From: Leptolyngbya sp. SIO4C1
GTDB taxonomy: Bacteria; Cyanobacteriota; Cyanobacteriia; Phormidesmidales; Phormidesmidaceae
Direction of reading: 5' to 3'
Assembly: GCA_010671975.1 (NCBI GenBank)
Contig: JAAHIA010000008.1
Span: 1 to 33,110, forward strand
Length of the DNA stretch: 33,110 nt
The notes under the pieces are model-generated. The model had not been told where the DNA came from. It made no database searches and saw only the letters and a program-made list of their open reading frames with translations. The position numbers and the translations under genes were made by a program. Of the stretch, positions 23,535 to 26,940 are shown in pieces (position 1 is the stretch's first letter; the number at the start of each line of letters is the position of its first letter).

Positions 23535-23888
23535 ATGCCGCTCATCAAAGTTCAAACTTCAGTCGAAGGACCCGCTAAAACCACTGTCGAAGCTTTGCTC
23601 AAAGATCTCTCAGCTAGCCTATCCAAGCATCTTGGTAAGCCGGAGTCATACGTCATGACGGCATTCGAGCCGAGCGTTCCCATGACCTTTGCCGGCACCA
23701 CAGATCCGGCCTGCTTCATTGAAATAAAAAGCGTGGGCACCATGGGCGGCGGTAAAACTAAAGCCATGAGTCAGGACTTCTGCGCCAAAGTGCAAGCAGC
23801 GCTAGGCGTGCCAACTGATCGCACCTATATTGAATTTGCCGATGCTCAAGGCGCGATGTGGGGCTGGAATGGAACAACTTTCGGCTAG
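23535..23888 (+). CDS. Phenylpyruvate tautomerase / MIF-related protein
   Basis: MPLIKVQTSV with N-terminal Pro after Met; GKPESYVMTAFEPSVPMTFAGTTDPACFIEIKSVGTMGGGKTKAMSQDFCAKVQAALGVPTDRTYIEFADAQGAMWGWNGTTFG. Confidence 0.9.
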   Translation: MPLIKVQTSVEGPAKTTVEALLKDLSASLSKHLGKPESYVMTAFEPSVPMTFAGTTDPACFIEIKSVGTMGGGKTKAMSQDFCAKVQAALGVPTDRTYIEFADAQGAMWGWNGTTFG

Positions 23889-23897
23889 CGGTATCAT

Positions 23898-23963
23898 CTT
23901 TAGCGTTCCTTTATTGATATTCACAGGGCTTTTACGACGTGGCCCAGATCAAAAGGGTAGAGT
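23898..23963 (+). promoter_or_regulatory. Unit 1 promoter: four-box TTTAC-like array plus -10-like hexamer
   Basis: CTTTAG, CTTTAT, ATTCAC, TTTTAC; box A residues at 23902, 23913, 23923, 23934 (spacing 11/10/11). TAGAGT at 23958-23963, 24 bp after the last A. Confidence 0.65.
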
Positions 23964-23969
23964 AAATTT

Positions 23970-24041
23970 AATTCCTGAACAAAACCCGTGCTGAAAGCTC
24001 TATGGGTAAAGCCCTGGCAAGCCTGCCAGGGCTATTTTATT
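23970..24041 (+). ncRNA. Candidate small RNA, unit 1 (about 70 nt)
   Basis: No convincing ORF. Starts 7 nt past the -10-like box; 5' CCTGAACAAAACCC; one small hairpin (ACCCgtGCTgaaAGCtctatGGGT) then the terminator. TSS is inferred, not measured. Confidence 0.55.
24010..24041 (+). terminator. Intrinsic terminator of unit 1
   Basis: AGCCCTGGCA-agcc-TGCCAGGGCT perfect 10-bp stem followed by ATTTTATT. Confidence 0.8.
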
Positions 24042-24211
24042 GGCCTTTTAAGATGCAGCCTGCCACCAATAGCGCCGGCCGCCTGAGTGAGAATAGCGAC
24101 GATTGCTGAGCGCGCTCTAAGCGGTCTCACCTTTAACGGGCTAGCGATCGCTACGCCGCCGCTACGATGGCAAAATCGCTGGCATCAGCCCGCTAACTTA
24201 GACTAACGAAG

Positions 24212-24277
24212 CTTTAACCCGTCTTTACTATGTTTTACAGCGTTTTTACAGCGGCTGACTGGCGTCTGCTCTACAGT
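24212..24277 (+). promoter_or_regulatory. Unit 2 promoter: four-box TTTAC-like array plus -10-like hexamer
   Basis: CTTTAA, CTTTAC, TTTTAC, TTTTAC; box A residues at 24216, 24227, 24237, 24248 (11/10/11). TACAGT at 24272-24277, 24 bp after the last A. Confidence 0.68.
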
Positions 24278-24283
24278 AAAGAT

Positions 24284-24393
24284 GGCTCCTGAAAATCTCA
24301 CTGTCCACCGACTTTTTATACAGAAACCCTACTTCTTATACGGACATCCCTATAGCTAACCTGCCCCAGTCGCTGAGCGACTGGGGTTATTAA
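24284..24393 (+). ncRNA. Candidate small RNA, unit 2 (about 110 nt)
   Basis: No convincing ORF; CCTGAAAA at 24288 sits at the same offset from the -10-like box as CCTGAACA in unit 1; ends at a strong hairpin. Confidence 0.55.
24364..24393 (+). terminator. Intrinsic terminator of unit 2
   Basis: CCCCAGTCGCT-g-AGCGACTGGGG perfect 11-bp arms (a few loop-closing pairs open in practice) followed by TTATTAATT. Confidence 0.75.
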
Positions 24394-24416
24394 TTACTGA
24401 CATTTCCGCTAACGGT

Positions 24417-24704
24417 CTAAACTGGCTCACCATCTAAGAGTTCAATCTTGCCAGACTCTCTGACGCATTCTAAACGCCACCGCTGCCCGCTCACTTTGCC
24501 TGGCAAAAAGCCCACTACCGTCAAATAAGACTCCCGTCCTTCATAGTCGACCTTCAGCAGTAGCTCACCTCGGCTCTGGCTGACAATCAGCGCGGTTATT
24601 TCAAACTCGCCCTCCTGCGCCCAGGGAGGAAGCGACTGGTCTGTCTCTCGATCGGCAGTGCGCGCCACTGCAGAAATATTGTCATTTTCGTTTGAAGTAG
24701 CCAT
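24417..24704 (-). CDS. Small hypothetical protein located between candidate sRNA units 2 and 3
   Basis: About 95 aa from ATG at 24704 (ORF extends to 24776): MATSNENDNISAVARTADRETDQSLPPWAQEGEFEITALIVSQSRGELLLKVDYEGRESYLTVVGFLPGKVSGQRWRLECVRESGKIELLDGEPV. No family recognised. Confidence 0.6.
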   Translation of the reverse strand: MATSNENDNISAVARTADRETDQSLPPWAQEGEFEITALIVSQSRGELLLKVDYEGRESYLTVVGFLPGKVSGQRWRLECVRESGKIELLDGEPV

Positions 24705-24877
24705 AGTCTTACTCGCAGTTGGTGTACAGGATAGACCCCTCACTATTCTGGCGGATAATTTTGCTGAGCCTATCACTTTTTTAAATAAACTATCGTCTGA
24801 CTGCTCACAGTATCGTTGCCAGCACGGATTTTCGGGATGATCCGCAATACAAATTGAGCAGCGTTTTGTATCGCTAT

Positions 24878-24943
24878 CTTTAGGCGCCCTTCACGGAGAT
24901 TTACATAGCGTTTACGGACACTGCCAAGCAGATCGCTTAGATT
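24878..24943 (+). promoter_or_regulatory. Unit 3 promoter: four-box TTTAC-like array plus -10-like hexamer
   Basis: CTTTAG, CTTCAC, ATTTAC, GTTTAC; box A residues at 24882, 24893, 24903, 24914 (11/10/11). TAGATT at 24938-24943, 24 bp after the last A. Confidence 0.65.
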
Positions 24944-24949
24944 AAATGC

Positions 24950-25125
24950 AGATGTTCGGTTTATGCCGACTGTGCTTGTGTCCTTCCTGACACAGTTTCT
25001 CTAACGCCTACATATTTTTAACGGTCTATATTTCACGCTCTATTGCCAACTCTATATTGTCGACCGCCTGTCGACGTCACCCTATGTGTAATCAGCCCCG
25101 GCTAGCCTGCCGGGGTTATTTAATT
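24950..25125 (+). ncRNA. Candidate small RNA, unit 3 (about 175 nt)
   Basis: No convincing ORF; internal stem candidates (TGTC...GACA near 24980-25000 and GTCGAC...GTCGAC near 25060-25078); ends at a hairpin homologous to the unit 1 terminator. Confidence 0.5.
25094..25125 (+). terminator. Intrinsic terminator of unit 3
   Basis: AGCCCCGGC-tagcct-GCCGGGGTT followed by ATTTAATT; aligns to the unit 1 terminator with a T-A to C-G compensatory change. Confidence 0.75.
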
Positions 25126-25152: not shown

Positions 25153-26940
25153 CTAGAAAGGAACATCTGGGCCAGACTGGGAAGATTTAGGGGCAGTGTC
25201 TGCAGCGCCCTCAGTAGAATCTTCTAAGCTGACTATCTGACCGTTGAAGAACTGAGCAAAGCTTTTAACGCTGCGCTCAAACTCGCTATCAATTGCCATG
25301 GTCAGAGTTTCTTCAGGGGCGTCCACGGCAGGTGATGCAGTCTCTGCCGCCGGAGCAGGATCAGCTTCAGTCGGCACAGGCATCATAGCAGTCGGCACAG
25401 CGGCCGGTACTGCTTCAGCTGGGTCAGCCGCAATCACTTCTAGGGCGACCCGCAGCTTGTGACCAAACACAGCCGCGAAAGCGGCTTCTAGGTTGGGCAC
25501 CCGATCTTGAGCTAGCTTATACAGGCGATCTGACTTAAAGCCGACGCGGGCTTCTGCGCCATCTAGCGCTAGCAGCTTACCTTGCTGCCTCATCAGCATG
25601 CGGGTGGCGCGAGAGCTAAGTTTGGCCAGCACCTGCAGCCAGATGTCTTCGATACTCTTGCTGGCAGCCACGGGGGCCGGGGCAGATGCAGCTGGCCGAT
25701 CGGCCGGTGGTGCAGCTGATTCTGGCTCTTGTTTAGGTGGTGAGGCAGCAGGCGGCGCCGATTTCGGCGGGGCCGGCGCCGGTGAAGGCGAGCCTGAGTT
25801 GGCAGGATGAGCGATCGCACTGGTCTCACCCAGCTGCTCAGCCGCACCTAGCGCAGTAGGCAGCAGCCCCATCAGCGTAATTTCCAACCACAGGCGCGGC
25901 TGCGTCGTATTTTTAATTTGCACTTCAGCCGCGCGCAAATGCTGCTGGCTGGTCAACAATAGCGGAATAGACAGCGCCTCAGCCAAGCGACCCATGTCAG
26001 CCCAAGTTGGCGGCGTGACAGCCACCAGATCTTGCCGGTGCGGTGCCGTTTTAGCAATCAGCAAATCGCGGTAAAAGCCCACGAGACTCTGCAGCACAAT
26101 CAGCGGTTCACGACCGCGATCCATCAGGTGCCTGGCGCGCTCTAGCAGCTGTGAGCTATCGTCTGCGGCAATCGCGCGCACGAGGGCCAGCAGATCACGC
26201 TCTGGCACGGCCCCGACTAGATCCCAAACGCGCTCTACCGTAATTTCGCCCTCGAGCAGCCCTAGCTGATCGAGCAGGCTTTCAGCATCGCGCAGACCGC
26301 CTTGCGAAATCTGCGCCACCAGCTGCACCGCATCCGGCGCGATCGCAATCGCTTCTTTTTCAGCAATCAGGGTGAGATGCTGCACCATATCCGCTAGCGG
26401 AATGCGGCGAAAGTCAAAGCGCTGGCAGCGAGAAATAATGGTTGGCAGCACGCGCTGCGGATCGGTAGTTGCCAAAACAAACACTACTCGCTCTGGCGGC
26501 TCTTCCAGCGTTTTTAGCAGCGCGTTGAACGCAGCGGTGCTGAGCATGTGTACTTCATCAAGAACATACAGCTTGTAGCGACACTGCACCGGGGCAAACT
26601 GGGCCCGCTCAATCAGCTCTCGAATATTATCGACGCCAGTATTGCTCGCCGCGTCGATTTCGACGATGTCAAGCGCGGCCCCTTCGGCAATTTCGCGACA
26701 GACCTGGCAGCGGCCGCAGGGTTCTGGGGTGGGGCTGCTGGCCTGCAGACAGTTGAGCGATTTGGCTAAGATTCTGGCGCTAGAGGTTTTACCGGTGCCT
26801 CTCGGGCCGCAGAATAGGTAGGCTGGCGCTATTCGATTTTGACGCAGCGCGTTAGCCAGCGTTGTTGCGATCGCGGCTTGCCCCACCAGCTGCGCAAACG
26901 TTTGTGGACGGTATTTATGATGTAGGGGTTCATAGTCCAT
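25153..26940 (-). CDS. dnaX: DNA polymerase III subunit gamma/tau
   Basis: 595 aa; YEPLHHKYRPQTFAQLVGQ, AYLFCGPRGTGKTSSARILAKSLNC, zinc-binding Cys cluster, YKLYVLDEVHMLSTAAFNALLKTLEEPPERVVFVLATTDPQRVLPTIISRCQRFDF; Pro/Ala-rich linker. No intein. Confidence 0.97.
   Translation of the reverse strand: MDYEPLHHKYRPQTFAQLVGQAAIATTLANALRQNRIAPAYLFCGPRGTGKTSSARILAKSLNCLQASSPTPEPCGRCQVCREIAEGAALDIVEIDAASNTGVDNIRELIERAQFAPVQCRYKLYVLDEVHMLSTAAFNALLKTLEEPPERVVFVLATTDPQRVLPTIISRCQRFDFRRIPLADMVQHLTLIAEKEAIAIAPDAVQLVAQISQGGLRDAESLLDQLGLLEGEITVERVWDLVGAVPERDLLALVRAIAADDSSQLLERARHLMDRGREPLIVLQSLVGFYRDLLIAKTAPHRQDLVAVTPPTWADMGRLAEALSIPLLLTSQQHLRAAEVQIKNTTQPRLWLEITLMGLLPTALGAAEQLGETSAIAHPANSGSPSPAPAPPKSAPPAASPPKQEPESAAPPADRPAASAPAPVAASKSIEDIWLQVLAKLSSRATRMLMRQQGKLLALDGAEARVGFKSDRLYKLAQDRVPNLEAAFAAVFGHKLRVALEVIAADPAEAVPAAVPTAMMPVPTEADPAPAAETASPAVDAPEETLTMAIDSEFERSVKSFAQFFNGQIVSLEDSTEGAADTAPKSSQSGPDVPF

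Follow-up and report, generated by a model that had tools for sequence, protein, structure and literature searches.

The 33,110-nucleotide stretch of Leptolyngbya sp. SIO4C1 DNA analysed here (hereafter, the window) contains three plus-strand units located between a flavin-reductase/MIF-type tautomerase gene pair, which ends at 23888, and dnaX (25153-26940, minus strand). Each unit consists of a four-box array, a TANANT -10 element, and a strong terminator, and is predicted to encode a small RNA (sRNA). The flavin-reductase/tautomerase pair likewise precedes the array in a relative (G002), and thus at least this position of the array is old. Between units 2 and 3, a 119-codon frame with a GTG start (24417-24776, minus strand) showed no Pfam or NCBIfam match. 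The features are as follows, with inferred ends for the sRNAs.

23898..23936, plus strand: array 1, four boxes, with TTTA/TTCA cores at 23899, 23910, 23920, and 23931
23958..23963, plus strand: predicted -10 of unit 1, TAGAGT, 22 nt past the TTTAC of array 1
23970..24040, plus strand: predicted sRNA of unit 1, about 71 nt, with a CTCTATGGGTAA motif before the terminator (MFE z = -4.3)
24010..24033, plus strand: terminator of unit 1
24212..24250, plus strand: array 2, four boxes, with cores at 24213, 24224, 24234, and 24245
24272..24277, plus strand: predicted -10 of unit 2, TACAGT
24284..24394, plus strand: predicted sRNA of unit 2, about 110 nt, with repeated TTATACAGAAACC / CTTATACGGACATCC / CCTATAGCTAACC modules read from the sequence
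24363..24387, plus strand: terminator of unit 2
24878..24916, plus strand: array 3, four boxes, with cores at 24879, 24890, 24900, and 24911
24938..24943, plus strand: predicted -10 of unit 3, TAGATT
24950..25124, plus strand: predicted sRNA of unit 3, about 175 nt, ending in CCCTATGTGTAATCAGCCCCGGC... as in relatives
25094..25117, plus strand: terminator of unit 3

The three array sequences quoted in a preliminary description of this DNA were all found on the plus strand. The gap-free alignment claimed for them does not hold as quoted, but is obtained once the extra leading base of the third quoted sequence (AAGCTTTAACC..., corresponding to the middle unit) is removed. In all three arrays, the TTTA-type boxes start at 0, +11, +21, and +32 (11-10-11 spacing), and the distance from the last TTTAx to the TANANT -10 is exactly 22 nt. 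The arrays extend from about -72 to -34 relative to the inferred start, in agreement with the earlier estimate of approximately 30-70 bp upstream. No sequence fitted a -35 hexamer, and a promoter search found no sigma-70 promoter at the arrays.

The pattern CTTTA-N6-CTTYA-N6-TTYACA-N4-KTTTACR had three mismatch-free matches in the whole 5.3-Mb draft genome, all within this 1-kb stretch, while the reversed-pattern control had none in the same genome and no four-box match appeared in 60 dinucleotide shuffles of the window. Together with the presence of the same architecture in relatives, these results confirm that the four boxes first noted in the preliminary description are real. The likeness of the arrays might alternatively reflect a recent tandem duplication of the three units, without any function, and the units are indeed paralogous and adjacent. 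However, the box cores and their distances were kept while the spacers, intervening DNA, and RNA bodies diverged, and the same pattern holds between genera. There, the cores were clearly more conserved than the spacers, which refutes duplication as the explanation and leaves it extremely improbable.

The same architecture was identified in 24 further promoters of the Leptothoe/Adonisia group and other genera of the family, giving 27 with those of the window; it occurs in tandem sets in one genus (g3) and at several places in one genome (G013). A free fit returned the 11-10-11 spacing for 25 of the 27 promoters, and the other two fitted with one mismatch. The gap between array and -10 was N22 in 24 of the 27 and N23 in three. 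The mean information content of the 27 aligned promoters, computed with an effective number of sequences of 24, was 1.62 bits in the box cores, compared with 0.38 in the spacers and 0.26 between the array and the -10, and YTYA fitted 102 of the 108 box cores. When 390 genomes of the class were searched for the architecture, 11 of the 62 own-family genomes contributed 24 hits and the reversed-pattern control a single one. Among these 24 hits, 23 precede sRNA-like units, the exception being G005:C1756. The hits obtained outside the family (L230-L245) were no more frequent than those of the controls and appear unrelated.

Intrinsically curved or UP-element-like DNA that acts without a dedicated regulator could also present four helically phased T-rich tracts immediately before a promoter that has no -35 hexamer. 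In the aligned promoters, however, conservation of the A that follows TTT is about equal to that of the Ts, and a TpA step interrupts A-tract bending. The cores are also followed by box-specific letters, namely G for box 1 and C or T for boxes 3-4, and curvature of this kind is, in our estimation, very unlikely to account for the arrays.

Arrays with 11-10-11 spacing and N22 to the -10 were designated class A, and those with 11-11-11 spacing and N11, which lie one helical turn nearer to the -10, class B. Most arrays of genus g6 belong to class B, as does that of one other family. The latter (L287 in G098) is a 16/16 array, CTTTATCC-TTTTAAGC-GTTTATTC-GTTTACGA, with 11-11-11 spacing; it lies 11 nt before TAGTAT (distance by eye) and precedes the same RNA family, and its presence outside the family possibly reflects transfer or an older origin. 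In three g3 genomes (L090, L091, and L092 in G015, G042, and G037, respectively), another conserved intergenic locus, lying between genes for an ABC-transporter ATPase and a LapA-like protein, has one or two arrays that precede RNAs with two or three CTTATACAGAAACC modules.

The sRNAs of the family are about 70-175 nt long and share a layout of YTATANNNAAC modules, CTATGTGTAA, and then GCCCCGG...CCGGGGTTATTTATT. Their terminators are intrinsic, and the sibling units number three in the window and two to eight copies in relatives. In the predicted folds, the terminator forms a hairpin, and in several members the conserved modules stay largely unpaired. The nearest named relatives that an RNA pattern retrieved were Leptothoe kymatousa, Adonisia turfae, Leptolyngbya sp. 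PCC 7375, and Leptolyngbya sp. Heron Island J. A covariance model built solely on the RNA detected the family in 40 of the 62 own-family genomes and in 5 of 328 others; this model was first trained on array-found units, and RNA-only recovery is therefore independent solely for the newly found members. In genus g6, TTTA-type four-box arrays lie upstream of 9 of the 13 RNA-only hits, and the L287 array of the other family likewise lies upstream of a hit of this model. Regarding known families, an Rfam scan of the window and units returned no match. NsiR1 (RF02399) scored 14.4 bits, below its cut-off of 39, and PsrR1 (RF02701) had no gathering match in the window; in a relative it reached no more than 13.7 bits, through the terminator, against a cut-off of 42. 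The PsrR1 model found nothing in 16 relatives either, a weak negative since the control genomes gave no match.

The preliminary description had interpreted the array as a doubled HLR1 or Pho box. These two readings were compared with in-family controls, one promoter per regulator (psaD for HLR1 and sphX/pstS for Pho), using KTTACAWW-N2-KTTACAWW as the HLR1 consensus (PMC13421787) and YTTAAYYW repeats as the Pho-box consensus (PMC13226834, PMC1906773) for scoring. In the same family of genomes, psaD carries a strict HLR1 (GTTACACTTCCTCACA, 10-bp repeat) 28 nt before the -10. It is the sole in-family HLR1 control because the psaE and psaL upstream regions showed no clear conserved forward HLR1. 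The arrays resemble the psaD site in having direct TTA(C)-type half-sites upstream of -35 and one 10-bp pair, but differ in their four boxes, 11-bp outer pairs, loss of the KTTACA pair in relatives, and distance to the -10.

The mean HLR1 score was 10.9/16 for 36 array promoters, compared with 10.1 ± 1.0 for shuffles and 11-13 for psaD. Units 2 and 3 reached 13/16, as good as psaD, which explains the earlier HLR1 impression, and unit 1 reached 10/16. Binding of RpaB through an HLR1-type central pair (boxes 2-3), which would place the sRNAs in the light/redox regulon, agrees with the scores of these two units, the central spacing of 10, and the position of the central pair at about -59 to -45 from the inferred start, inside the range of -66 to -45 reported for RpaB activating sites (PMC13421787). 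However, the mean over the promoters stayed near that of the shuffles, the usual letters in relatives are TTTAAG or TTCATG for box 2 and TTTACG for box 3, and the pair richest in TTTAC (boxes 3-4) has a spacing of 11 bp instead of 10. Class B arrays are without any 10-bp pair, the psaD geometry differs, and the 13/16 match is lost in unit 1 and most relatives. With differences from psaD in letters, spacing, and -10 distance across relatives, the doubled-HLR1 reading is not supported, and control by RpaB is considered quite unlikely. Against a CcaR G-box consensus, the arrays scored no better than about 1 sd above shuffles. In the psaE upstream regions (e.g., L191, L192, and L195), a conserved minus-strand stretch, TTTAAGAATTGTTGCATA, was observed some 118 nt upstream of psaE and could be a reverse-oriented regulator site.

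In the sphX/pstS promoters of the family, a strict Pho box with an 11-bp repeat, CTTAACC-N4-CTTTAC, lies 10 nt upstream of the -10, a form found in 12 of 13 genomes. Pho boxes are described as three or more repeats 11 bp apart, the last one 10 bp from the -10; the array spacing is 11-10-11 in the window and 11-11-11 in most g6 arrays and that of one other family. The mean Pho score of the arrays was 12.0/16, compared with 10.7 ± 1.1 for shuffles and 15 for sphX. If SphR (PhoB) recognized the array as several weak Pho boxes in a row, the sRNAs would be induced by phosphate starvation. Like the sphX site, the arrays contain tandem 11-bp direct repeats and a CTTTAC box; the second sphX box, CTTTAC[CTG], has a core identical to that of array box 4, box 1 of unit 2 is CTTTAACC, and the 11-11-11 spacing and N11 of class B resemble PhoB geometry. 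Unlike the sphX site, most arrays are without the strict CTTAACC box, their score is modest, and they lie N22 or N11, not N10, from the -10. Regulation by SphR is accordingly judged unlikely, and the doubled Pho box is not upheld. The HLR1 scores lie near those of shuffles, the Pho scores are modest, and the HLR1 match of units 2 and 3 does not extend to unit 1 or to relatives. Assigning the arrays to RpaB or SphR thus lacks support. What stands of the earlier reading is four phased direct half-sites, spaced 11-10-11 upstream of sRNA units, as two OmpR-family dimers would use.

OmpR/PhoB-type activators typically bind 10-11 bp direct repeats on one helical face, without a -35 hexamer and at a fixed distance from the -10. 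Judging from the boxes, their spacing, the fixed -10 distance, the conservation, and the tie to the RNA family, all of which can be read directly in the sequences, each array is probably an activator site for a winged-helix response regulator of this class that controls the multi-copy sRNA family. Two head-to-tail dimers may occupy boxes 1-2 and boxes 3-4, respectively, on one face of the helix (this pairing is our suggestion). From there, immediately before a -35 region that has no hexamer, they would recruit RNA polymerase to the TANANT -10, such that the response regulator would activate rather than repress and the sRNA family members would be switched on together by one signal. The sRNAs may in turn act by base pairing via their conserved YTATANNNAAC modules. 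Between N22 in class A and N11 in class B, the 11-bp shift keeps the helical phase, which favours a protein contacting RNA polymerase. Counting against the two-dimer arrangement, the central spacing of 10 in class A versus 11 in class B needs flexibility between the dimers.

Streptococci and Listeria offer well-known examples of multi-copy sRNAs governed by a single two-component regulator. To our knowledge, no such multi-copy case has been described in cyanobacteria, besides the HetR-dependent NsiR1. The closest working parallel, by analogy of organization, is the set of streptococcal csRNAs under CiaR, a member of the OmpR family that binds TTTAAG-N5-TTTAAG (11-bp repeat) 10 nt before the -10 of these multi-copy sRNAs (PMC3091779). 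As in that system, the units in the window are multi-copy, terminator-ended siblings with their own promoters, TTTA-type direct repeats with a period of 11 bp immediately before the -10, and an unpaired conserved stretch before the terminator (PMC3091779); a sequence relation between the RNAs is not part of this likeness. The sites differ in having four boxes instead of two and 22 (or 11) nt to the -10 instead of 10. The LhrC sRNAs of Listeria are likewise multi-copy and all under one two-component regulator, LisR, with upstream elements extending to about -75 (PMC4132741); LhrC has no defined repeat array, and its RNAs are unrelated. What is new relative to csRNA/CiaR and LhrC/LisR is the number of boxes (four), the 11-10-11 spacing, and N22. 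NsiR1 of Nostoc also consists of sibling sRNAs in tandem, each about 60-70 nt long and with its own promoter (PMC9045159); unlike those of the HetR/DIF-dependent NsiR1, the window promoters have no DIF motif.

Tentatively, the arrays may represent a cyanobacterial counterpart of CiaR and the csRNAs, a possibility to which we give somewhat less than even weight: a response regulator other than RpaB and SphR would use a four-box site almost only for lineage-specific, Rfam-less multi-copy sRNAs, and this site would have moved by one helical turn between genera. The arrays would then mark a small regulon made up almost entirely of sRNAs, and their clean and conserved candidate site can be tested by mutation. 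The natural variants (11-10-11 with N22; 11-11-11 with N11) offer a test of how the activator must face RNA polymerase, and the regulator, once found, would place the new sRNA family in a signalling pathway.

Other promoters of the same RNA family were also observed. In g6, array-less sibling sRNAs (L070, L075, L076, and L078) carry TTTTCCGGA about 22 nt before TANTNAGT (distance by eye); this element recalls the DIF motif (TCCGGA), but at another distance. A further conserved promoter, with a CTGCCATAAAGATG / CCCATGAACATG element followed by AGGCATTCTAGGTACAGA, was found in g12 and in dispersed g3 copies (L054-L067, L271-L299). Because some family members, in the same and other genomes, use these quite different array-less promoters, the RNA does not need the array. 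Overall, at least three predicted promoter types, the four-box array among them, are wired to one RNA family.
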